This document shows positions 2,839 through 63,161 of a stretch of 64,000 nucleotides of DNA, piece after piece. Position numbers and translations under genes: made by a program. Every line of letters begins with the position of its first letter. Position 1 is the first letter of the stretch. This stretch comes from Cytophagales bacterium. GTDB lineage: Bacteria; Bacteroidota; Bacteroidia; Cytophagales; VRUD01. Under the pieces are notes generated by a model, which saw only the letters and a program-made list of their open reading frames with translations, did no database searches and was not told where the DNA came from. Location of the stretch: NCBI GenBank assembly GCA_019456305.1, contig VRUD01000007.1, positions 1-64,000 on the forward strand. The letters are read 5' to 3'.

Positions 2839-2840
2839 TT

Positions 2841-2895
2841 GGCAGTTGGCAAGGAAGAGACGCCCAATTTGGGCGTCTCTTCCTTGCCAACTGCC
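2841..2895. repeat. 55-base perfect palindrome with GAGACGCCCAA core
   Basis: Two 27-base arms match exactly around a single central T. The inner GAGACGCCCAA/TTGGGCGTCTC core recurs at 30174-30238 and 54678-54740. The outer GGCAGTTGGCA links it to the CGGCAGT family. Confidence 0.95.
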
Positions 2896-3165
2896 AACTT
2901 ATCTATTAACAGCAACAAAATTATCGTTCCCGAGTACTCGGGATCAATAATGAATTTTTAAGTGCCTAATTGGGGCGAAAGGTACAATAATGATTGAAGC
3001 AAAAAAATATTCTTGGAAAATATTATTACCCAAAAATCTAAATTAAAAAAAATAGCTCAAATCTTAACTGTTTTTTTATAAATTGTTAAAGTTACGGGTT
3101 ACGGGTTCAGAGGGGTGTAAGGTTCGTTCAGAAGGGTGACTCTTTCTACTGTCAACTGCCACTTC
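2896..3165. other. gene-free stretch with one palindrome
   Basis: Besides TCCCGAGTACTCGGGA at 2928-2943 I see only AT-rich sequence and a small direct repeat GTTACGGGTTACGGGTT-like stretch near 3090. No gene or promoter can be supported. Confidence 0.5.
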
Positions 3166-9725: not shown

Positions 9726-11945
9726 TCAAATATCCCACACAAACGCCCCCTGATGCCTCACTGAAAAGCAGGGAATATCATAGGCTTTCGCTTCTTTTAG
9801 CAACTTTTTACCATAATACCATTTGTTAGAAGAATCGATGATGAGTTTTGTGAAAATAAAATGCTCCTGAAGTTTTCTCAGTGAAATATGTGCATTGTTT
9901 TGGAGCACAATAAAGTCAATATCTATTTTGTAGTAAGTGGGGGTCCGGCTCATGTTCGGGCTGCCACTCCCCAAATTGCCAGGAAATTCCATATCCTTAT
10001 TCAATAATAATATCTTATAACCATTCCAAACAATTAAATCCACAGCCCCCCTAAATCCCCCCAAAGGGGGGACTTTGCCACCCCCTTTGCCTCCTGTGGG
10101 GGATAGGGGATGGCCAGTTCTCCCCCCTTTGGGGGGAGTTAGAGGGGGGCTGGTGGGGCTTGGCGTAATATTCGTTTTTCTGATCCCTTTATTCCACCAA
10201 TGATGAAAAATATGAAATCTTAACTTTGATTTATCATTTAATAAAATTGAATCACAGATCAGCTCATTTTCAAAACCATCAATAAAGTCAATTGCCGAAT
10301 GATCATGAATATTATAGACAACAAAACGTTTTTGATTTTTTTGAATACTTAACTCAATGATCTGAAAAATGCTGAACAAAAATAAGAGTGAAAATAATAC
10401 TACCTGGAATTGAATTTTTTTAAAATAGATAAAAATTAAAAAAATTATAACGATCGCATAGATCAGCCATGATTCAAAAACCGAAATATCAATGCCCTTT
10501 ATAAGCGCAAATGGAAGTTTCTCTATGGTAAATATGAACTGGTTTAACAACCATATCAGCTTTTCAAGCAAAAAGCCAAAGCCCTTAGCCAGCAAAGGAA
10601 TAAATGAAGCGCCAATCGTTGTAAATCCTAAACATAAGATCAATAAAGCAGAAGGAATAACGACCAGGTTTGAGAAAAGAAAACAGGTAGGAAATTGATG
10701 AAAATACAATAAAGCAATAGGAAAGGTAGCAACCTGGGCTGCAATGGAAACACAGGTAATTGCCCAGATCTGATCGCCAACCCAATTGTATATTTCAACG
10801 AGGCCGTATAGCTTTGGCTGTAAATATACAATCCCAAAAACAGCCATATAGGAAAGCTGGAATCCAACTTCCATGATTAAATAAGGATTAAAGCATAGCA
10901 GGCAAAAAGCCGAGACCGCGAGTATATTATAGATATTGGTTTGCCTGCCAAAAGCCCTCGCAACAATAATGAACGAAAACATTGTAACTGCTCTCAACAC
11001 CGAAGGTGAGAGTGCTGTAACAAAAGCATAAAACCACAATACAACCAATAGAATAAAAGCCAGTATTATTTCTCCATACTTGATCTTTCTAAGTCTTCCG
11101 AGGATAAGCATTAAAAATTGAAAAACGATGCCAACGTGCAGTCCTGATACGGCTAGAACGTGCATAGCTCCGGCATTGGAATATGCTTCTTTTATTTCAT
11201 TATCAAGACTGCTTCTTATTCCCAGAATTAAAGCTGAGGCAATTTTATATTCCCTTGATGAATGGATGTATTTACGGAGTATTTTATCGCAGTAGTTCCT
11301 TACCGCTGTGGCCTTTTCTTTTATAACATTAATGGGTTGATAACCACAGACCAGGTAATTTCCGTTCCTTACAAAATGTTGATGGTAAATGTTGTGGAAT
11401 CTTAAATATCTTTTGTAATCAAATTCATTAGGGTTTGAAGGTGGAGTGATAAGGTTGGGTGAACCTTTTATGATTAACCTGTCGCCATATTTCAGCATTT
11501 TGGTAGTCGAATCCTTAGCAAAATATATGAGAATGCGGCCGGAAGCTGTTCCCCACCCATTTTCATTTTTAATTTCAGAAATTAAAAGCTCTGCTTTATA
11601 GCTTTTAGCTTTTTCAGTTAATTCTGAAACAATGAGTCCTTTATAATAATAGATTTCTCCATTGAAATTTAGAATATGATTAGCATCATTAGAATTTGTT
11701 TTTTGTTTTGTTAACAGGATGCCAAATAAGAAAACCGAAATTAAGGCAATGATTCCAAATACCGGCTTAAAATATACAATACGTTCTTTAGGAATAGTGA
11801 AATAGAGGAGGGCATAAGCTGAGATAAAACAAGCGAATAGCTCAAAATAGTGATCAAACTCAAGACCGGTGTAGATATAAAAAAGGATGCCGGCTATGAA
11901 GAAAACGGTGATTCTGAGGAATGAATAAGGCGTCCATTTGATCAT
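9726..11945 (-). CDS. comEC: ComEC/Rec2 family DNA-uptake channel with in-frame repeats
   Basis: ComEC forms the inner-membrane channel for single-stranded DNA in natural transformation. The 739-residue protein has an N-terminal membrane pair and DUF4131-like OB region, then the Competence domain with ASALILGIRSSLDNEIKEAYSNAGAMHVLAVSGLHVGIVF (about 233-272) and many helices to about residue 530. The metallo-beta-lactamase domain is absent, as is usual for short Bacteroidota forms. At 10043-10152 a repeat is read through in frame and gives a low-complexity stretch starting SPPLTPPKGGRTG (about residues 600-635). A second odd insertion, GSGSPNMSRTPT, follows near 9945-9985. Both lie in the C-terminal soluble part, so the channel may remain functional. 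Confidence 0.88.
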   Translation of the reverse strand: MIKWTPYSFLRITVFFIAGILFYIYTGLEFDHYFELFACFISAYALLYFTIPKERIVYFKPVFGIIALISVFLFGILLTKQKTNSNDANHILNFNGEIYYYKGLIVSELTEKAKSYKAELLISEIKNENGWGTASGRILIYFAKDSTTKMLKYGDRLIIKGSPNLITPPSNPNEFDYKRYLRFHNIYHQHFVRNGNYLVCGYQPINVIKEKATAVRNYCDKILRKYIHSSREYKIASALILGIRSSLDNEIKEAYSNAGAMHVLAVSGLHVGIVFQFLMLILGRLRKIKYGEIILAFILLVVLWFYAFVTALSPSVLRAVTMFSFIIVARAFGRQTNIYNILAVSAFCLLCFNPYLIMEVGFQLSYMAVFGIVYLQPKLYGLVEIYNWVGDQIWAITCVSIAAQVATFPIALLYFHQFPTCFLFSNLVVIPSALLILCLGFTTIGASFIPLLAKGFGFLLEKLIWLLNQFIFTIEKLPFALIKGIDISVFESWLIYAIVIIFLIFIYFKKIQFQVVLFSLLFLFSIFQIIELSIQKNQKRFVVYNIHDHSAIDFIDGFENELICDSILLNDKSKLRFHIFHHWWNKGIRKTNITPSPTSPPLTPPKGGRTGHPLSPTGGKGGGKVPPLGGFRGAVDLIVWNGYKILLLNKDMEFPGNLGSGSPNMSRTPTYYKIDIDFIVLQNNAHISLRKLQEHFIFTKLIIDSSNKWYYGKKLLKEAKAYDIPCFSVRHQGAFVWDI
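10043..10152. repeat. CAGCCCCCCTAAATCCCCC-type palindromic repeat inside comEC
   Basis: The left half (CAGCCCCCCTAAA, then CCCCAAAGGGGGG) and the right half (CCCCCTTTGGGGGGAGTTAG, then GGGGGGCTG) are inverted relatives. The same family occurs inside the M14 carboxypeptidase gene at 38403-38517, inside the cupin-methyltransferase gene at 30174-30238, and as a short intergenic relative near 28006-28035. Confidence 0.9.
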
Positions 11946-22643: not shown

Positions 22644-22787
22644 CTAATCAGTCGGCAGTTGGCAATCGGCAGTCAGCAAAAAAGCAAAAAAACAATTGCT
22701 GACTGCCGACTGCCGACTGTGGACTGCCGACTGCCGATTGTGGACTGCCGACTGCCGATTGTGGACTGCCGACTGCCGACTGATTAG
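22644..22787. repeat. CGGCAGT/GACTGCC microsatellite-like hairpin block
   Basis: CTAATCAGTCGGCAG at the left end is inverted at the right end. Between them are many tandem copies of GACTGCCGA and TTGTGGACTGCC. The block is between the convergent sdhB and PPTase genes and may act as a terminator hairpin. Confidence 0.95.
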
Positions 22788-26360: not shown

Positions 26361-26440
26361 TAAATTAATTTTGGCTTTAGTTTAATATAGCGTGTTAAAC
26401 TGTATATTAGCTCTGTAAATGTACACGAAATTGATAAAAT

Positions 26441-26637
26441 CGGCAGTCTCCAGTCGGCAATCTACAGTCCCCAGTCAGCAAAAAACAATTGCCGACTGCC
26501 GATTGTGGACTGCCGACTGCCGACTGTGGACTGCCGACTGTGGACTGCCGACTGTGGACTGCCGACTGCCGACTGCCGACTGCCGACTGCCGACTGTGGA
26601 CTGTCGACTGCCGATTGCCGACTGTGGACTGCAGACT
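26441..26637. repeat. long CGGCAGT/GACTGCC block
   Basis: About 200 bases made of GCCGACT, GTGGACT and GCCGATT units in variable order, with inverted units (CGGCAGTC) at the left edge. The block is open in several frames on both strands by periodicity alone. It lies 80 bases upstream of folB. Confidence 0.97.
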
Positions 26638-26716
26638 TAAAGGTATTCAATGTGATTTTGAAAAATTATACATTTTGCAACGTTAGTTTAAACTAAAGCC
26701 TTAATTTTTTATATCT

Positions 26717-29194: not shown

Positions 29195-29716
29195 ATGGAA
29201 CTATTCATTGACATTCTCAAGATTTTATTACCTGCTCTAATAGTATTGTATGCTGTTTATCTTATCGTGAAATCATTTTTAGATAAGGAATTAGAAAAAA
29301 AGATGGTGGATCTTAAGACGAAAAATACCGAGTTAGTGCTGCCCATCAGGCTGCAGGCTTATGAGAGAATGTGTTTATTCCTGGAGCGGATCACTCCGCA
29401 TAACCTCGTAGTACGGTTGAATAAAGATGGATATTCTGCCAGAGAATTCCATAAAAAGATACTTGAAGAGATCAACCATGAATATAATCACAATCTTTCA
29501 CAGCAAGTATATATGAGTGATCAATCATGGTTATTAGTTAAAAATGCAAAAGAACAAATAATATCTATAATCAATCAATCTGCTGATCAATTACAACAAG
29601 GCGCTAAAGGTATGGATCTTGCTAAAATGATCTTTGATAATCTTATAAAAAAGAATGAAGATCCTACCAGCAAAGCGCTGACATTTTTGAAAGATGAGAT
29701 CAGGCAGATCTTTTGA
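29195..29716 (+). CDS. conserved single-TM hypothetical protein
   Basis: A 173-residue protein with one N-terminal membrane helix (ILKILLPALIVLYAVYLIV, about 7-25), then a charged linker and a soluble helical domain: LPIRLQAYERMCLFLERITPHNLVVRL and MSDQSWLLVKNAKEQIISIIN. This is a conserved Bacteroidota family of unknown function. The soluble part probably faces the cytoplasm. No operon partner: a repeat region of 160 bases separates it from the next gene. Confidence 0.75.
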   Translation: MELFIDILKILLPALIVLYAVYLIVKSFLDKELEKKMVDLKTKNTELVLPIRLQAYERMCLFLERITPHNLVVRLNKDGYSAREFHKKILEEINHEYNHNLSQQVYMSDQSWLLVKNAKEQIISIINQSADQLQQGAKGMDLAKMIFDNLIKKNEDPTSKALTFLKDEIRQIF

Positions 29717-29718
29717 AA

Positions 29719-29873
29719 AATGGTTAAAAACAGTTAATAGCGGTTAATAATGGTTAATATCGGTTACTTTTTCATATGCTTAATCTTGAAAAAAAGGAGC
29801 ATATTGCAAAAAAGCAGTGTTTTAAGCAACCGTTGTTAACTGTTGTTAACTGCTATTAACTGCTATTAACTTT
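29719..29873. repeat. GGTTAATA / TATTAACC inverted repeat block
   Basis: Tandem units GGTTAAAAA, AGTTAATAGC and GGTTAATAATGG on the left are inverted on the right as GTTGTTAACTG and GCTATTAACTG. The block fills the space between two genes. Confidence 0.9.
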
Positions 29874-29879
29874 TATTTA

Positions 29880-31388
29880 ATGAAAAACATAATCAAATCA
29901 CTAAAAACATTAACTCCTGCTGATTTGGATTTTCGGTCATTAGGGGATTGGGTTTATCAGTTTGATTTTAAAAAGATTGATTATAAGCACTTAATACCTT
30001 CGATACAAGACCCTAAAAATTATGCAAGAAATATATTAACCCTGAAGCCCATAGAATGCGTTATTTTACACTGGCCCCCTCAATGTGAGAGCGCCATTCA
30101 TTACCATGAAGGCTTTTGGGGATATGTAGCAGTGCTTGAAGGGATTGCAGAAAATGTGGAGTATAGGTTGGAAAGCCCCCCTAAATCCCGAGTAGAGACG
30201 CCCAAATTGGGCGTCTCTACTCGGGATTTAGGGGGGCTGCTAATTAAGAGCACTACTTTGCGATCTTTTGAGGGAGGTATATTTCCGGAACCTGATAATG
30301 TAATACACAAAATTATTAATCCTCATTCTGCAGCTTTGGTAACAGCACATTTTTACTACCCTCCTTTGGAAGATTTTGCAGGAATGAAGATCTACGATAT
30401 AGAAAACTGCAAGCTGGGAATTCTCAATGAAAAAGCCCAGACCGCCTCCTGGAATGAGCCTGAAGAGCATTTTCAGAAGATAGTTTCCAACGCTTTCCAG
30501 TATATTCCATATTACGAAAATAATAAAAAGCTTACCCATAAGATATACCCAATAGTACCCAAACCTCATAAAAGCGATATCCGGAAAATGGTAAGCGGTT
30601 ATTATGAGGAGCAGGCAAGAGAATATGACAATTTCGATACCCGCCATGAATCACGAAACGCTTACGTACAAAAAATAAATGAATTGGTTGCCAAAGACCT
30701 TGTTCAGCAAAATTCGGGTTGGCCGCCATCGGATGGCTCTGCTGGTACGCGGGTTGTGCCATCCGATGGATCTGTGGGTAAAATAAATAATATGCTCATA
30801 CTTGCCTGCGGAACCGGCAGGAGGGCAATAGAGATAAAGGAGCAGACTAAGCTGGACTATGAGATCACCTGTGTTGAGATGAGTAAGGAAATGTGTAAAA
30901 TAGCTCAGCAGAGAGGTTTGAATGTGATCAATGCTGCGTGGTTAGATGCAGACCTCAGAAATGGATTACTTTTTGATGCAGTTACTTTCCTTTATGCCTT
31001 TGGGCATATTCCCAGCGAGGAAGAAAGGAAGAAAGTGTTGATGAAAGTAAATAAACATTTAAACATAGGAGGCCACTTTTATTTCGATGCTTTTAATATC
31101 AAAGATAAGAACGAATGGGGGGCCAGCGCTGTTAAAAATTATGAAAAGTTTAATCTTTCTAATTTTGATTATCAGAAAGGAGATGTTTTTTATAAAAAAG
31201 TGGATGGAGAACAGTTCGCTTTCCTGCATTATTTTACAGAAGATGAAATAATTAGCTTGTTGGGAAAGACTGGCTTTGAACTAGACCAAATGCTCAATAT
31301 TGGATATGTAAATAAGTCCGGAGAAGTATTAAATGCTAAAGATGAAGGAGCGTTTTTTATTAAAGCTAAAAAAGTGAAACATCAATAG
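29880..31388 (+). CDS. cysteine-dioxygenase-like cupin fused to a SAM methyltransferase
   Basis: This 502-residue protein has two domains. Residues about 1-195 resemble type I cysteine dioxygenase: a cupin with CVILHWPPQCESAIHYHEGFWGYVAVLEG (about 60-88; H-x-H...E-G-x-x) and a later VIHKIINPHSAALVTAHFYYPPL. Residues about 235-500 are a class I methyltransferase: YYEEQAREYDNFD, the SAM site MLILACGTGRRAIEIK (about 305-320), FDAVTFLYAFGHIPSEEER. Two repeat-derived segments are read through: SPPKSRVETPKLGV...RDLGG inside the cupin and WPPSDGSAGTRVVPSDGSVG just before the SAM site. Iron dioxygenase activity on a thiol with methylation of the product is a guess. It overlaps the convergent protease gene by 23 bases. 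Confidence 0.82.
   Translation: MKNIIKSLKTLTPADLDFRSLGDWVYQFDFKKIDYKHLIPSIQDPKNYARNILTLKPIECVILHWPPQCESAIHYHEGFWGYVAVLEGIAENVEYRLESPPKSRVETPKLGVSTRDLGGLLIKSTTLRSFEGGIFPEPDNVIHKIINPHSAALVTAHFYYPPLEDFAGMKIYDIENCKLGILNEKAQTASWNEPEEHFQKIVSNAFQYIPYYENNKKLTHKIYPIVPKPHKSDIRKMVSGYYEEQAREYDNFDTRHESRNAYVQKINELVAKDLVQQNSGWPPSDGSAGTRVVPSDGSVGKINNMLILACGTGRRAIEIKEQTKLDYEITCVEMSKEMCKIAQQRGLNVINAAWLDADLRNGLLFDAVTFLYAFGHIPSEEERKKVLMKVNKHLNIGGHFYFDAFNIKDKNEWGASAVKNYEKFNLSNFDYQKGDVFYKKVDGEQFAFLHYFTEDEIISLLGKTGFELDQMLNIGYVNKSGEVLNAKDEGAFFIKAKKVKHQ
30174..30238. repeat. 65-base perfect palindrome inside a coding region
   Basis: Two exact 32-base arms around one central A: AGCCCCCCTAAATCCCGAG outside, TAGAGACGCCCAA inside. 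The core is the GACGCCCAAATTGGGCGTC family and the outside the CCCCCCTAAATCCC family. The host frame stays open through it. Confidence 0.95.
30726..30769. repeat. CCATCGGATGG repeat inside a coding region
   Basis: CCATCGGATGG and CCATCCGATGG bound a 22-base centre with CTGGTACGCGGG. Relatives occur at 34434-34476, 38220-38267 and 43307-43346. It codes for PPSDGSAGTRVVPSDGS. Confidence 0.85.
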
Positions 31389-33459
31389 AGGAATTTTTTT
31401 TAAAAATAGCGCCCTTCATATTGTTTAAAAAAGTAGAATTGGTTGCTTCAGGTGTGAATTGAAACAGCTTTTTTGTAGGTAAATTCATAGTGCCCCACAT
31501 TAGGTATTGGCATTTTCCATTTGTTATTTCTTTCTTTATATGACAGAGCACCATCTGTGTAGCTTTCTCAACCAGCATGTATTGTTGCTTTGTGAAAATA
31601 GTCTGAAATTGCCCTTTATATACTTCTTTTACCACCCCCTTTTCAACAAGAGCAATTAGGTATCCATTGGAATTGTATATATCGAAATTGATATCAATAA
31701 ATTCTTCGTTCCAATCTTTAAAAGATAGAAATGGCTGGCCGCTATATACGAACATCTGTTCATAGTAGTAACTACCTCCCAGCTTAATGGTACATTCTGA
31801 TAATCCTGATTCGGAACTCCCCTGCTCTAAGCGGGGAGACTCTGATGAGTCGGGCCTCAATTTTCGAGTTTCGAATTTCGAGTTTCGAATTTCGAGTTTC
31901 GAATGGCGGGATTTAGATTGGGACTCTGATGAGTAGCCCTCCGATAGTTGTTTATAATACCTAAAGTTTGTAGAATCTCCCAATGCTTCATAAGCTGCAC
32001 TTAAATAACCATAAGCATATCCATTATCAGGATTCATGATGAGCAGTTTTTTATAGCTTTCAATTGATTTATCATAATTGCCTTTAGCAAACCAGGCAAG
32101 CCCCAAAATCCTGTAACAATACTGATCATTTGGATACAATGTTGCAAGTTTATTGCCGTAATAAATGGCGTTGTCTAATTGCCTTTCACGTTCATCAGTG
32201 ATTACCAAATTTCGGTAGATTATGCCGGGTACTGCATTTTCTCTTGGAACAGCCCGCATTATATCCATTACTATATCCTCTTCTTTATCGCTTCTGCTAT
32301 ATTGCCAATATATTGAAGACAAAGATAAAAGAGCATCGGGGTTCAGCGTGTCAAGAGCAAAGCCCTTTTTAGCATATTTTAGGGCTAACTCGTAATTTCC
32401 ATTATTGGCATAGCTCACGGCTAATTTAATGTAAACGCTCACATCTTCTGTATTACTGTTGACAATGTACTTTTCATAAAATTTTATTGCTTTATCATCG
32501 TTTAATCGGTTATAATAAATGTCTGCTAAATATTTATATATTTCTGTAACTGCCATAATACTATCTACAATCCTGGAAATTTGCTGATTATTTTCCATTG
32601 CAGCTGTAAGGTAATGCAGCATAAGTTCAGAATTTCCTGTTTGATAATATGCATATCCTAAATATATAAATGCCTCAATATTCTGAGGTTCAAAAATTGT
32701 TACCTTTTTAAAATAATTGATAGAAACCTTATATTGACCTCTATTAAATTCGTAAATCCCCATTTGAAGATAATAATTTGCCTTTATGGATTTATCCTCA
32801 TGGTCTTGATTAATTAATTCATCAAAAGCATTGACTGGAATGGCAAAATTCAGATTTTGGGCATTGGTAGCCGATACGGAAACATAGGTACTGATACCTA
32901 TCAATTCTCCTTTTACATTCACGATTGCTCCACCACTTGAACCAGGAGATAGCGGACATGAAACCTGTATGTAGGACATAGAGTTGTCATCACTTTTTCG
33001 AATCCCGCTGACAATACCTTCTGTTATAGTGTTTTCATAACCTTTAGGACTTCCTACAGAAAACACCTTTTCTCCTACCTGTACTTTATCACTGTTTGCC
33101 ATGGTAACAGCGCCAAATGTCTTTTCGGATATCTTTAGCAGCATCATATCTTTTTGGATATCAAACCCAAGTATCACAACATCCCTGATAATTGAATCCT
33201 CGTGTTTGACAATGATATGTTGACCACCTTGAATTAAATGAAAATTGGTAATTACAAGCCCCTTTTTATCTATCACTACCCCGCTGCCTTGCCCTATGTT
33301 ATTACACAAGGCGTCATGCGAATAAAGTGTAAGCACTGAACCTGTTACTTTTTTGTAGATCTTTTCTGCATCTACCTTTTGTGCCTTAGCTGTCTCGCAT
33401 ATATAGCAAAGGTGCCCGGCAACCGATGACCATAAAATTATCTTTAATACCTTTTTCAT
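31366..33459 (-). CDS. HtrA-like serine protease with TPR repeats
   Basis: After a signal segment (KVLKIILWSSVAGHLCYICETAKA) comes a trypsin-like S1C domain. With numbering from the upstream ATG at 33474 the triad is H79 (ITNFHLIQ), D109 (QKDMMLLKI) and S180 (SPGSSGGAI). There is no PDZ domain. About eight TPR units follow (for example NIEAFIYLGYAYYQTGNSELMLHYL), then a repeat-derived stretch (KSRHSKLEIRNSKFETRKLR and on to SGLSE), then a C-terminal domain shared with the 33645-34238 protein. The start at 33459 (MKKVLK) is preferred because the upstream codons lie in a MITE. It is likely a periplasmic quality-control or regulatory protease. Confidence 0.85.
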   Translation of the reverse strand: MKKVLKIILWSSVAGHLCYICETAKAQKVDAEKIYKKVTGSVLTLYSHDALCNNIGQGSGVVIDKKGLVITNFHLIQGGQHIIVKHEDSIIRDVVILGFDIQKDMMLLKISEKTFGAVTMANSDKVQVGEKVFSVGSPKGYENTITEGIVSGIRKSDDNSMSYIQVSCPLSPGSSGGAIVNVKGELIGISTYVSVSATNAQNLNFAIPVNAFDELINQDHEDKSIKANYYLQMGIYEFNRGQYKVSINYFKKVTIFEPQNIEAFIYLGYAYYQTGNSELMLHYLTAAMENNQQISRIVDSIMAVTEIYKYLADIYYNRLNDDKAIKFYEKYIVNSNTEDVSVYIKLAVSYANNGNYELALKYAKKGFALDTLNPDALLSLSSIYWQYSRSDKEEDIVMDIMRAVPRENAVPGIIYRNLVITDERERQLDNAIYYGNKLATLYPNDQYCYRILGLAWFAKGNYDKSIESYKKLLIMNPDNGYAYGYLSAAYEALGDSTNFRYYKQLSEGYSSESQSKSRHSKLEIRNSKFETRKLRPDSSESPRLEQGSSESGLSECTIKLGGSYYYEQMFVYSGQPFLSFKDWNEEFIDINFDIYNSNGYLIALVEKGVVKEVYKGQFQTIFTKQQYMLVEKATQMVLCHIKKEITNGKCQYLMWGTMNLPTKKLFQFTPEATNSTFLNNMKGAIFKKNSSIDVSLF
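31800..31935. repeat. in-frame TTTCGAA repeat block in the protease gene
   Basis: Tandem TTTCGAGTTTCGAA units (31862-31904) are flanked by GACTCTGATGAGT on both sides (31839-31851 and 31922-31934) and by CCCCTGCTCTAAGCGGGG. It encodes the low-complexity link between TPR and C-terminal domains. Confidence 0.85.
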
Positions 33460-33468
33460 TATTCTAAT

Positions 33469-33586
33469 GGGCATCTCTAAAAACTACACCATACATTCCC
33501 CTCTACCTGCCCGCCACGGCCAAGGCAGGCGGGTCAAGAGGGGCAAGGGGTGTGTTTTAAAAAATATGTAGTTTTTAGAGATGCCC
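33469..33586. mobile_element. MITE-like element with GGGCATCTCTAAAAACTAC termini
   Basis: Nineteen-base ends are perfect inverted repeats (GGGCATCTCTAAAAACTAC against GTAGTTTTTAGAGATGCCC), flanked on both sides by the direct repeat TAAT (33465-33468, 33587-33590), which looks like a target-site duplication. The 118-base element has no ORF; its centre contains the CTGCCCGCC...GGCAGGCGGG hairpin. It sits 10 bases before the protease ATG. Confidence 0.88.
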
Positions 33587-34238: not shown

Positions 34239-34493
34239 AAATCCAAAGGGGTAAACATCCCAAAATACTCCAGGGTTAAAATCTCTATCGATAAAAAAAA
34301 TAGTGTAGTGGACGGGCATAATGCAGAGACGAGGTATGTAGAGACGTTGCATGCAACGTCTCTACATACCTCGTCTCTGCACTCATTAGGGTTGAGCATT
34401 GACCATGCTGTAATAAAGGGGAGGCAATCATCGGATGGCTCTATAGCATCAGGGGTGGAGCCATCCGGTGAATATGCTGGCAAAGCTAATGCT
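34239..34493 (+). pseudogene. duplicated fragment of the M14 carboxypeptidase N-terminus
   Basis: In frame directly after the stop of the previous gene, the text PKYSRVKISIDKKNS matches QKYSRVKIPIDKKHA at residues 24-38 of the carboxypeptidase (38042-41041). A palindrome (GTAGAGACGTTGCATGCAACG core, 34340-34367) is inserted, then 114 bases (34380-34493) are identical to 38171-38284. There is no start codon or signal peptide. Confidence 0.85.
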
Positions 34494-34734: not shown

Positions 34735-35195
34735 AACATTACCGCTTTTCTCCTGTACAACGTGGTGAAAGATGACAGTTTGAACTCAAACCAGAAATAT
34801 TTTTAGAAAAACCCCTGGAGTAACTAAAATAAAATACTACTTTTACATCATCACACCCCGCATCCCGAGTACTCGGGATGCGGGGTGTGCGGGACACTTA
34901 AAGGTTGAACGTGCCTAACATAAAACCATTTAGTACCTAAAAATCTAAATTAAAAAGAGGAAAAGTACGTCCTATTGTGAATAAAGAGCTGCATTAAGAC
35001 AATATGTTGCAAAAATTAATAATAATAGGGTCAACCAGCACCCAGTAACCAGCATCCAGTAACTGATAATTTGATGCATGATGTTAATAATGCTTACAAT
35101 TTAAGTTGTTTTTTTTAACTTAGATTTTTAGGTAGTATCTTTTTTGCCCTGAACACCAAAAATTGTATTCTTTAATCCAAACCAATTTTAAAACC
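34735..35195. other. gene-free stretch of repeats
   Basis: It contains a perfect 38-base palindrome at 34852-34889 (CACACCCCGCATCCCGAGT and its inverse) built on CCCGAGTACTCGGG, and a direct repeat of CCAGCACCCAGTAA/CCAGCATCCAGTAA at about 35036-35061. Otherwise AT-rich; no gene or RNA recognised. Confidence 0.8.
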
Positions 35196-38041: not shown

Positions 38042-41041
38042 ATGAAAAAGTTTTTGATCTATACACTTACAATGCTGCTGTGTCATGTATTACCGCTTGA
38101 GACAATTGCACAGTATCAGAAATACTCGAGGGTTAAAATCCCTATTGATAAAAAACATGCTCGTACACTACACTCATTAGGGTTGAGCATTGACCATGCT
38201 GTAATAAAGGGGAGGCAATCATCGGATGGCTCTATAGCATCAGGGGTGGAGCCATCCGGTGAATATGCTGGCAAAGCTAATGCTTTTATAATAACCGATC
38301 TGTCAGCTTATGAAATTAACCTGCTGGATCAAAACGGATTTGCACTTCAAATATTAATTGATGATGTATCAAAATTTTATCAGGATAGGAGTAAGAAAGA
38401 CCGCAGCCCCCCTCTAACTCCCCCCAAAGGGGGGAGAACTGGCCAACCCTTAAATCCCCCAAGAGGGAAAAGCGATGGCAAAGTCTCCCCCTTTGGGGGA
38501 GATTTAGAGGGGGCTGCTGTTTGCCCTGCACCTAACCCAAACGACACCATTACCACACCCGGTGGCTTTTCCCTCGGCTCAACGGGCGGGTTTTTTACCT
38601 ACAATGAAATGTTGGCCCATCTTGATACGATGGCTGCTCAATACCCGGGTATTATTTCAGTAAAACAGCCCATTGATACGTTCACTACGATTGAAGGACG
38701 TCCTGTTTTCCGGGTTAAGATTTCAGATAATCCGCTCGCAGATGAAAGCAGTACGGAGGCCCAGGTTTTATATACTGCCATTCACCATGCCCGTGAACCG
38801 GTGTCCATGTCGCAGTTGATATTCTATATGTATTATTTGTTAGAAAATTATGGGCAGGATACGCTCGTAACAAGTATTGTTGACCGGACGGAAATGTTTT
38901 TTGTCCCCTGTGTCAACCCTGACGGGTATATTTACAACGAAACTACCAATCCATCTGGCGGGGGGATGTGGCGAAAGAACAGGAGAAACAACGGAGACGG
39001 CACCTTTGGCGTTGACCTTAACAGAAATTACGGGTATAACTGGGGCTTTGATGATTTTGGCTCATCGCCCAATACAAACAGTGAGACCTATAGAGGTACC
39101 GCACCATTTTCTGAACCAGAAACACAGGCGATGCAATATTTATGCGAACAACACAATTTTAAGATCGCCTTAAATTATCACGCATTTGGGAATTTGTTGA
39201 TATATCCGTGGGGTTATGACTATGGAATTTATACACCCGATTCAGCGCGTTTTGTACAATTTGCCCTCCTGTTAACAAAAAATAATAATTATGTATATGG
39301 TACGGGCGACCAAACCGTTGGTTATATCGTAAACGGTGACGCTGATGACTGGATGTATGGTGAGCAGGGCACAAAAAATATGATCCTTGCCATGACCCCT
39401 GAAGTGGGCAGCTCAAATGATTTTTTCTGGCCTGCGCCTTCAAGGATCATTCCATTATGCAAAGACAACATTTTTGCAAATCTCTATATGGCCATGCTGT
39501 CCGGCTCTTTTGTGAATGTAGAACCGGAAAGCGGCCTTTTTATTAGTAGTTACAACGGTACCATTAAATTTGATCTGACAAGCATAGGCCTGTTATTACC
39601 AACCAACGTCTCTGTGAGTCTGTATAGTACAAATCCTTACGTAACAGGTATTGACAGCGCCAAAAATTTTACCGGCATTACAGACATGACTCCTGTAACG
39701 GATTCCTTTTCTTTTTCTTTAGACAACCTTATTCCCAAGAATACTGAAATTGAGTTTGTTTTTATGGTAAATGACGGGCTTAATGTCTATGAATTTGTTG
39801 TGACTAAATTGTTTAATAATTCTCTGCCTTTTTTATCTGATAGCTTAAATAATTTAACTAACTGGAGCACTGCTAACTGGGGAATTACTACCGCTCAATA
39901 TTATTCACCTCCTTCATCAATAACGGATTCACCATTTGGAAATTATTTGCCAAATGACAGCAATTCCGTAACTTTAAATCAACCGGTTGATCTGACTGGA
40001 GCCGTAGATGCTTATCTTACTTTTTGGGCAAAATGGGATATAGAATCCAACTGGGATTACCTGCAGGTAAAAGCATTTAATGGAAGTAACAACCAGCCGC
40101 TTTGTGGTTTCTATACAAGACCCGGCTCGGGTTTTTTCCAGCCATCCGGAGAACCTTTATACGATGGCATTCAGGGTAACTGGGTGCAGGAAATTATGAG
40201 CTTAAACGATTACCTCGGCCAGACAATTAACATAAGATTTGTACTCAACAGCGATGGAGGGCTTGAAAAAGATGGTTTCTATTTTGATGATTTCCAGGTT
40301 TTTGTAAGTTATCCCCAGTCCCCTGTTGTTAACCTTGGCGATACTATTTCATTTTGTTTGGGTGATTCAGTAACGCTTGACGCAGGTAATCCGGGAAGTA
40401 ATTATCTCTGGTCAACGGGCGATACTACTCAAACGATCGTTGTTGACTCTGTCGGGATATACAGTGTTACAGTCACCGATTCAATATGGATCGTTAGCGA
40501 TAGCGTTGTTGTCGTCTCATTGAGTACGTTTCCTACAGCAGCTTTTATTGATTCTGTAAATGGATTTTCAGCAAGCTTTATCAATATTTCTACAAACGCT
40601 GAATTATACTTTTGGGATTTTGGCGATTCCACTACCTCAAACTTATCTGATCCTGTTCATACTTATAATAATGCTACATGGTATTATGTGTGTTTAATAG
40701 CAGAAAATGCCTGCGGTTCAGATACCGTTTGTGATTCTGTTACAGTGACTGCAACTGGAATAAAAAATGTGGAAACTGATTTTGTAACCCTTCAAAACTA
40801 TCCTAACCCAGCCGCAGATTTCACAACGATAAAATATAAAATATCTGGTGAACTTGAAAACCCTGTTATCGAAATATTCAATTTATTAGGAGTTTCAGTT
40901 GGAAAATATGCCATTAACAATGCAGAAGGTTATCTTGAACTTGCTACATACAAATTAACACCCGGCATATATTATTATCGTTTGAAAGCTGCAAATTATA
41001 CCTCTGCATTTTTGAAGATGGTAGTGTTAAAAAAGCGATAA
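38042..41041 (+). CDS. secreted M14 zinc carboxypeptidase with T9SS sorting domain
   Basis: A 999-residue protein with signal peptide (MKKFLIYTLTMLLCHVLPLETIA). The M14 domain covers about 180-490: zinc ligands in AIHHAREPVS (H-x-x-E), substrate Arg in DLNRNYGYNWG, the third ligand in LNYHAFGNLLIYPWG and catalytic Glu in MTPEVGSSNDFF. Later come a CUB/jelly-roll-like region, a PKD-like domain (FLWDFGDSTTSNLSDPVHTY-like, about 856-875) and a type A sorting domain (LQNYPNPAADFTTIKYKI...TPGIYYYRLKAANYTS). Before the catalytic domain two repeat-derived insertions interrupt the propeptide (about 44-80 and 119-160). Since the propeptide is dispensable for catalysis, the enzyme may tolerate them. 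Confidence 0.92.
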   Translation: MKKFLIYTLTMLLCHVLPLETIAQYQKYSRVKIPIDKKHARTLHSLGLSIDHAVIKGRQSSDGSIASGVEPSGEYAGKANAFIITDLSAYEINLLDQNGFALQILIDDVSKFYQDRSKKDRSPPLTPPKGGRTGQPLNPPRGKSDGKVSPFGGDLEGAAVCPAPNPNDTITTPGGFSLGSTGGFFTYNEMLAHLDTMAAQYPGIISVKQPIDTFTTIEGRPVFRVKISDNPLADESSTEAQVLYTAIHHAREPVSMSQLIFYMYYLLENYGQDTLVTSIVDRTEMFFVPCVNPDGYIYNETTNPSGGGMWRKNRRNNGDGTFGVDLNRNYGYNWGFDDFGSSPNTNSETYRGTAPFSEPETQAMQYLCEQHNFKIALNYHAFGNLLIYPWGYDYGIYTPDSARFVQFALLLTKNNNYVYGTGDQTVGYIVNGDADDWMYGEQGTKNMILAMTPEVGSSNDFFWPAPSRIIPLCKDNIFANLYMAMLSGSFVNVEPESGLFISSYNGTIKFDLTSIGLLLPTNVSVSLYSTNPYVTGIDSAKNFTGITDMTPVTDSFSFSLDNLIPKNTEIEFVFMVNDGLNVYEFVVTKLFNNSLPFLSDSLNNLTNWSTANWGITTAQYYSPPSSITDSPFGNYLPNDSNSVTLNQPVDLTGAVDAYLTFWAKWDIESNWDYLQVKAFNGSNNQPLCGFYTRPGSGFFQPSGEPLYDGIQGNWVQEIMSLNDYLGQTINIRFVLNSDGGLEKDGFYFDDFQVFVSYPQSPVVNLGDTISFCLGDSVTLDAGNPGSNYLWSTGDTTQTIVVDSVGIYSVTVTDSIWIVSDSVVVVSLSTFPTAAFIDSVNGFSASFINISTNAELYFWDFGDSTTSNLSDPVHTYNNATWYYVCLIAENACGSDTVCDSVTVTATGIKNVETDFVTLQNYPNPAADFTTIKYKISGELENPVIEIFNLLGVSVGKYAINNAEGYLELATYKLTPGIYYYRLKAANYTSAFLKMVVLKKR
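38171..38284. repeat. 114-base duplication, copy in the carboxypeptidase gene
   Basis: Identical to 34380-34493. It contains the ATCGGATGGCTC...GAGCCATCCGGTGA palindrome of the CCATCGGATGG family and is read in frame (SLGLSIDHAVIKGRQSSDGS and beyond). Confidence 0.95.
38403..38517. repeat. CAGCCCCCC palindromic repeat inside the carboxypeptidase gene
   Basis: Starts GCAGCCCCCCTCTAACTCCC and ends with the inverse GAGATTTAGAGGGGGCTGC. It encodes SPPLTPPKGGRTGQPL and PPRGKSDGKVSPFGGDLEGA. The comEC copy (10043-10152) is read in frame on its own coding strand and gives the near-identical SPPLTPPKGGRTG. Confidence 0.9.
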
Positions 41042-54677: not shown

Positions 54678-54740
54678 AGCGCATAGCCCCGCCGGTAGAG
54701 ACGTCCAAATTGGGCGTCTCTACCGGCGGGGCTATGCGCT
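54678..54740. repeat. 63-base palindrome exactly filling the gap between two genes
   Basis: AGCGCATAGCCCCGCCGGTA and its inverse flank GAGACG(T/C)CCAAATTGGGCGTCTC; one mismatch in 31 pairs. It starts at the base after the MFS ATG and ends at the base before the exbD stop codon (minus-strand order). Confidence 0.95.
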
Positions 54741-62982: not shown

Positions 62983-63161
62983 CTGTCTATAAAGTCGAAT
63001 GTTTAATATATTATAGTAAAAACATAACTTCGTAAGTTGATTAAAAAGTCGGCAGTCCACAGTCGGCAGTCAGCAAATTTGCCGACTGCCGACTGCCGAC
63101 TGCCAACTTAATGTTGAAACTTTGGATTTTCATTAACGAATATTTTTGACATTATAGACAG
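62983..63161. mobile_element. MITE-like element with CTGTCTATAA termini, nesting a CGGCAGT block
   Basis: CTGTCTATAAAGTC at the left is nearly inverted at the right (GACATTATAGACAG; one difference). Inside, 63047-63109 holds the CGGCAGT/GACTGCC hairpin with AAGTTG...CAACTT outer arms. 179 bases, no ORF. Confidence 0.65.

Follow-up and report, generated by a model that had tools for sequence, protein, structure and literature searches.

Rickettsia palindromic elements (RPEs) are small repeats of 105–146 bp that lie in frame in many conserved genes, and a Rickettsia guanylate kinase that carries one is both translated and active (PMC2229807). GTAG-tagged REPs are dispersed palindromes of 20–40 bp that start with GTAG and are sometimes found within open reading frames (ORFs) and in DNA-repair genes (PMC3733652), and REPs also serve as targets of insertion sequences (PMC1525189). 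Template-switch (quasipalindrome) mutation can make or perfect inverted repeats, coding DNA included (PMC8794818, PMC8604942, PMC7202029), and the mitochondria of Nematomorpha have long perfect inverted repeats within genes, where they are translated (PMC6649704). How gene-less palindromic repeats of 20–70 nt spread is an open question.

The window analysed here is a stretch of 64,000 nt from a Cytophagales bacterium (contig VRUD01000007.1), in which a cupin gene contains a 65-nt perfect palindrome; a feature beyond the view of an earlier, sequence-only reading of this DNA is that a conserved core sits at the exact centre of palindromic arms that are specific to each copy. Like RPEs, these repeats are inserted in frame in conserved protein genes (35 copies, with insert-free homologues at 12 sites); unlike RPEs, their conserved unit measures 28–29 bp, outside the RPE length, their arms vary from copy to copy, and their exact centre-nesting is not described for RPEs in the available text of that report (PMC2229807). 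The GTAG at the end of the dispersed 28–29-nt core resembles the tag of GTAG-tagged REPs; however, the REP tag is unpaired and confined to one end, whereas the present element is symmetric, its GTAG being base-paired with CTAC (PMC3733652), and no RAYT gene was found near the repeats in the stretches examined of this draft genome. Mobile DNA entering palindromic repeats is also the theme of insertion sequences in REPs (PMC1525189), but the entrant here would be a gene-less palindrome of 28–29 bp whose product is still a perfect palindrome. The template-switch events in the available portions of the literature occur at existing short inverted repeats, none of them with a dispersed core central at dozens of sites, and in Nematomorpha both arms encode conserved host protein, in contrast to the extra peptide found here, which is absent from homologues (PMC6649704). 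The target-site duplication expected of a MITE was also sought, and direct repeats of 4–9 nt outside the palindromes occur in at most one of 79 copies, a duplication within a symmetric target being invisible to such a count. In the literature searched, as far as its available text extends, no description was found of a palindrome that repeatedly sits at the centre of others, leaves a perfectly symmetric product and does so in the coding DNA of one genome.

The 65-nt palindrome and its host gene

The host gene (29880..31388, + strand) encodes 502 aa and stays open through two inserts; its product is a cysteine-dioxygenase-like cupin fused to a SAM methyltransferase. Against profiles, the CDO_I match is weak and the methyltransferase families are clear, and the cupin matches the cysteine dioxygenases 3eqe and 4qm8 of the PDB. 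Relatives of the host gene were not found in named genomes, the homologues being from genomes of the same order; three of these (L022, L023, L024) share the domain architecture but lack the insert. The palindrome (AGCCCCCCTAAATCCCGAGTAGAGACGCCCAAATTGGGCGTCTCTACTCGGGATTTAGGGGGGCT) occupies 30174..30238 (palindromes are given here without strand), is the longest in the window and consists of 32+1+32 nt with an unpaired A at its centre (30206). It enters the protein in frame at ENVEYRLE^LLIKS, between two cupin motifs, where it adds a 22-aa loop with the peptide SPPKSRVETPKLGVSTRDLGGL. The opposite strand is open as well (a 69-aa ORF), because symmetry requires it. The earlier description of a 65-base perfect palindrome in a cupin gene, open on both strands, is thereby borne out, whereas its argument that insertion in either orientation keeps a frame open is empty, in that a perfect palindrome has no orientation save for its single centre base.

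Three layers are nested within the 65 nt. The outer layer consists of the terminal 16 nt of the C repeat (CAGCCCCCCTAAATCCC...GGGATTTAGGGGGGCTG) on the left (30174..30189, +) and of the same 16 nt inverted on the right (30223..30238, −). The middle layer comprises the left half of palindrome B (TCCCGAGTA; 30186..30194, +) and its right half (TACTCGGGA; 30218..30226, −), and the centre is core A (GTAGAGACGCCCAAATTGGGCGTCTCTAC; 30192..30220), which is common to other copies and overlaps B by GTA/TAC. The C repeat (AGCCCCCCTAAATCCC) is dispersed and 110–124 bp long, and its usual interior is missing from the 65-nt palindrome; an intact C-type repeat of 110 nt at 10043..10152 (+) reveals where the outer arms come from. 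The two repeat families that the earlier reading saw joined are indeed both dispersed, with 88 exact genome matches for the C-repeat end CCCCCTAAATCCC and 114 pattern matches for the GAGACG...CGTCTC palindrome (nested ones counted twice; the reversed-pattern control gave 1), and it lacked the third family, the middle-layer palindrome B (CCCGAGTACTCGGG), with 196 genome copies. A B pattern with a 28-base gap between its halves has no genome match, because the B halves share bases with the core. The RNA fold of the palindrome stretch is predicted at −72 kcal/mol (z = −15); hairpin matches in Rfam are all sub-threshold and are put down to chance, and the PLSDB plasmids gave no match.

Other repeats lie in and around the same gene. 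The second in-frame insert (30714..30780, +) belongs to an unrelated repeat family, D7, with 6 further genome copies, and falls in the linker that precedes the methyltransferase domain; two 117-nt copies of this family, 99% identical, are found at 34377–34493 and 38168–38284. Just upstream of the cupin gene, a long imperfect inverted repeat with 57-nt arms (29713–29769 and 29824–29880) is built of GGTTAATA/AACTGCTATT units.

Copies of the core and the symmetry of their flanks

From 61 stretches (the window and stretches around genome matches) of a single draft genome in 159 contigs, 79 copies of core A or its sister core A' (GTAGAGACGTTGCATGCAACGTCTCTAC) were aligned on their centres. The core measures 28–29 nt and the whole palindromes 21–75 nt, and most copies have GTAG...CTAC at both core ends, with GTAG pairing with CTAC. 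Nearly every copy in this genome lies at the centre of a larger perfect palindrome, and the outer arms vary by copy; in the window, for instance, an intergenic A copy with TTGGCAGTTGGCA array-type arms forms a 59-nt perfect palindrome (2839..2897), an A' copy (GTTGCATGCAAC core) lies inside a second GAGACG palindrome of 60 nt (34322..34381), and an A copy with AGCGCATAGCCCCGCCG arms of family E stands between an Atg22/MFS gene and an ExbD gene (54678..54740).

At flank positions 4–9, 61–72 of 77 copies are symmetric, as against about 20–25 expected with right flanks permuted, even though the flanks have a mixed base composition once past the conserved GTAG. Summed over positions 4–23 outward from GAGACG, the symmetric count is 1010, compared with 416.9 ± 21.4 (maximum 495) in 2000 permutations that exchange right flanks between copies; the excess extends to about position 20 and then ends. 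Flank symmetry is alike inside ORFs and between genes, and although an internal mismatch is present in 26 of 77 cores, perfect flanks surround many of these.

The pattern GTAGAGACG(N10-11)CGTCTCTAC is shared with other bacteria, where it occurs at no fewer than 117 loci, mainly in Bacteroidota and Cyanobacteria, but their flanks are ordinary and asymmetric. Among the matches listed, 128 distinct copies from elsewhere have a mirrored flank of 0 in 79 cases, of 1 in 32, and of at least 7 in only three; save for these three, flanks of GTAGAGACG palindromes that are symmetric here are chance-like in other bacteria among the matches listed. The rare mirrored flanks outside this genome include one of 14 nt at L330 535 (Bacteroidia MS495-74) and one of 9 nt at L256 891 (Nostoc sp. 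JL33), which are possible second lineages that behave alike. Among the matches listed, the letters GTAGAGACG led to no relevant literature. Within the same genome, long symmetric flanks are absent from 22 of 23 sampled B palindromes, the sole long-flanked one being at 34852..34889 with a mirrored CACACCCCGC flank. Because copies in other species and B are mostly unmirrored, the symmetry is a property of A/A' in this genome, and a general property neither of palindromes nor of the core. A genome-wide process that perfects all palindromes is ruled out by the unmirrored B palindromes of the sample.

Heptamer arrays (GACTGCC, GACTGTG) are also present in the window as two inverted arms, at 185–201, 22644–22787, 26437–26640 and 63046–63109. 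Palindrome B is at the centre of one of them (~192), and centre-nesting may not be limited to A.

Sources of the arms

Long-armed copies, defined by at least 9 nt outside GTAG, number 40 after three mis-cut rows (two of L044, one of L066) were dropped from 43. In 28 of the 40, the arms are half of another repeat family, namely other GAGACG palindromes (7), E (6), B (4), D15 (4), inverted array repeats (3), other GTAG palindromes (3) and F (1), as assigned by motifs that were picked after the arms had been read. The arms of the remaining 12 belong to no recognised family, and a whole-genome search with 19 unusual arms returned convincing further copies for F only, a few array-type arms matching weakly and in part; pre-existing outer palindromes at those 12 sites are thus putative. 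Halves of B stand on both sides of 9 copies, shorter arms included, and B covers an estimated 0.07% or so of the genome (196 × 16 bp in 4.25 Mb).

A before-and-after comparison is provided by SpoIIE paralogues. One SpoIIE-type gene (L059) reads GTAGTGAATGGGGATTTT-[A']-AAAATCCCCATTCACTAC, and at the same codons its paralogue L199 has TGTAGTGAACGGGCATGCCCGTTCACTACA, a perfect palindrome that lacks the core and is near-identical to the outer palindrome of L059; paralogue L204 has a decayed form of this outer palindrome. At the level of sequence, the pair L059/L199 supports the view that the core entered a palindrome that was already there. A different insert, a 33-nt hairpin, occupies the same loop in paralogue L202, and across L199, L200, L202, L204 and L205 this one surface loop holds various in-frame inserts, some of them palindromic; it is an insertion hot spot. 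With dozens of copies in putative palindromic targets and such a paralogue pair, both the entry site and fold-back copying become testable.

Proposed mechanism and alternative explanations

We put at roughly 70% the probability that the core is a mobile, REP-like palindrome which inserts itself at the centres of others, that the copies surviving in genes are translated, and that the cupin insert is a composite of this kind. In the proposed sequence of events, the GTAGAGACG...CGTCTCTAC palindrome would be a non-autonomous REP-like element that enters the symmetric centre, or hairpin tip, of palindromes already there in this genome, probably on single-stranded DNA at replication forks. Successive rounds could then yield perfectly symmetric hairpins of 50–75 nt; the 65-nt case would be a C-repeat shell around a B palindrome around an A core. 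Hairpin-tip entry on single-stranded DNA appears to be the simplest way to exact symmetry, and fold-back copying may have perfected the arms during or after entry. Y1 enzymes, which have been proposed to mobilise REPs (PMC3733652), are represented by seven genes (PF01797) in the draft genome; no GTAG palindrome lies within about 1.5 kb of them in the stretches examined.

The same symmetry would also arise if the core entered ordinary sites and its hairpin folded the strand back, so that one flank was copied inverted by template switching, a process that creates and perfects hairpins according to the available accounts (PMC8794818, PMC8604942). The arms would then be made during or after insertion and need not pre-exist, as the 12 long-armed copies with arms of no known family would suggest. 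In L040, moreover, the asymmetric TTTC loop of a D15 arm is mirrored on the opposite side (TTTCC.../...GGAAA) instead of being continued, and in L077 the left arm passes the centre of an A element while the right arm is its mirror and not its continuation. Offsets from the old centre vary with symmetry still perfect, and the many perfect flanks around the 26 mismatched cores are expected if copying starts past the core. However, mirroring is mostly lacking from B here and from copies of the core in other species, most arms come from known families, the SpoIIE paralogues have the outer palindrome without the core, and the sharp end of symmetry near position 20 fits outer palindromes of typical size. 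Template switching as the whole explanation is accordingly a doubtful one, and because the hints in its favour (L040, L077 and the mismatched cores) are few, fold-back copying is treated as a rival, or else as a later step of the same process. A further reading, offered tentatively, combines both processes in a self-propagating hairpin that seeks out hairpin tips and, as it enters, copies the neighbouring strand by fold-back, each insertion giving a larger perfect palindrome; if true, nested palindrome growth would be a mode of mobility that runs through coding DNA and whose products are translated.

Selection for long symmetric hairpins as functional RNA (terminators, RNase III sites or mRNA stability) would accord with the very stable fold and with the many intergenic copies just past gene ends; it is nevertheless highly improbable, since symmetry is similar inside ORFs and between genes, the arms differ at each site, and mismatches are tolerated in cores whose flanks are perfect. 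Palindromes are a known source of trouble in sequencing and assembly, and in a draft of 159 contigs mirrored flanks might have been made by palindromic k-mers or fold-back reads. Yet the mirrored stretches are short and give way to unique sequence inside long contigs, the 35 ORFs stay in frame, several of them in usually essential genes, and neither B in the same assembly nor the same core in other MAGs is affected, all of which makes such an artefact scarcely credible.

Coding copies and reading phase

Counting as in frame those copies whose ORF is open for at least 40 codons on either side, 35 of the 79 lie in frame within ORFs. Their hosts, by Pfam, include PriA (two), AspRS, Cmk, AsnB, PBP, a PurL-type glutaminase, SufD, MoeA, L3, BamA-like and other proteins, and the insert is absent from same-order homologues at 12 sites in 11 genes. 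Odd-length in-frame copies of core A with intact GTAG (n = 15) use phase 0 nine times, phase 2 six times and phase 1, which reads TAG, not at all; even-length copies of A' with intact GTAG (n = 14) are divided 8 and 6 across two open phases. The TAG phase is used by none of these 29 copies, a result that is partly built in by defining in-frame copies as open. One fixed coding phase is ruled out, as two phases are in use. The sequence-only reading had expected every coding copy to share a phase relative to the palindrome centre, which fails on phases 0 and 2, and had set against this random phases with frequent stops; the phases are not single, and the avoidance of stops holds.

Its proposal that such elements survive within genes by remaining open is upheld by the in-frame copies, housekeeping genes included, and orientation drops out as the cause: the lack of stops in two of the three phases, together with selection against frame breaks, accounts better for survival. 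On the proposed mechanism, a genic copy would persist only with a frame-keeping length, a TAG-free phase and a loop that the protein tolerates, the peptide then becoming part of the enzyme. Judged from their open frames, the peptides of in-frame copies are probably translated, in which case these genes would form a large, naturally occurring collection of enzymes that accommodate additional peptides from a perfect hairpin, and ribosomes would have to open and read through a 32-bp mRNA hairpin. Independently of how in-frame copies were defined, five same-strand neighbour pairs around other copies, compared by Pfam, include no clearly broken gene; four are separate genes, and in the fifth the L053 copy lies between two MFS-type ORFs.

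In AspRS, the palindrome measures 29 nt but only 4 aa are gained, so that not every entry simply adds its own length. The same site of the AspRS loop is occupied in frame by another palindrome, CCCCTCCTTGATAAGGAGGGG, in a second species of the order (genome G018; L101 1738–1759). Next to the cupin gene in the window, a gene for a trypsin-like protease with TPR (31366–33474, −) contains an in-frame low-complexity stretch at 31792–31917 (SKSRHSKLEIRNSKFETRK...) made of repeated CGAAACTCGAAATT units, which is probably another intragenic repeat.
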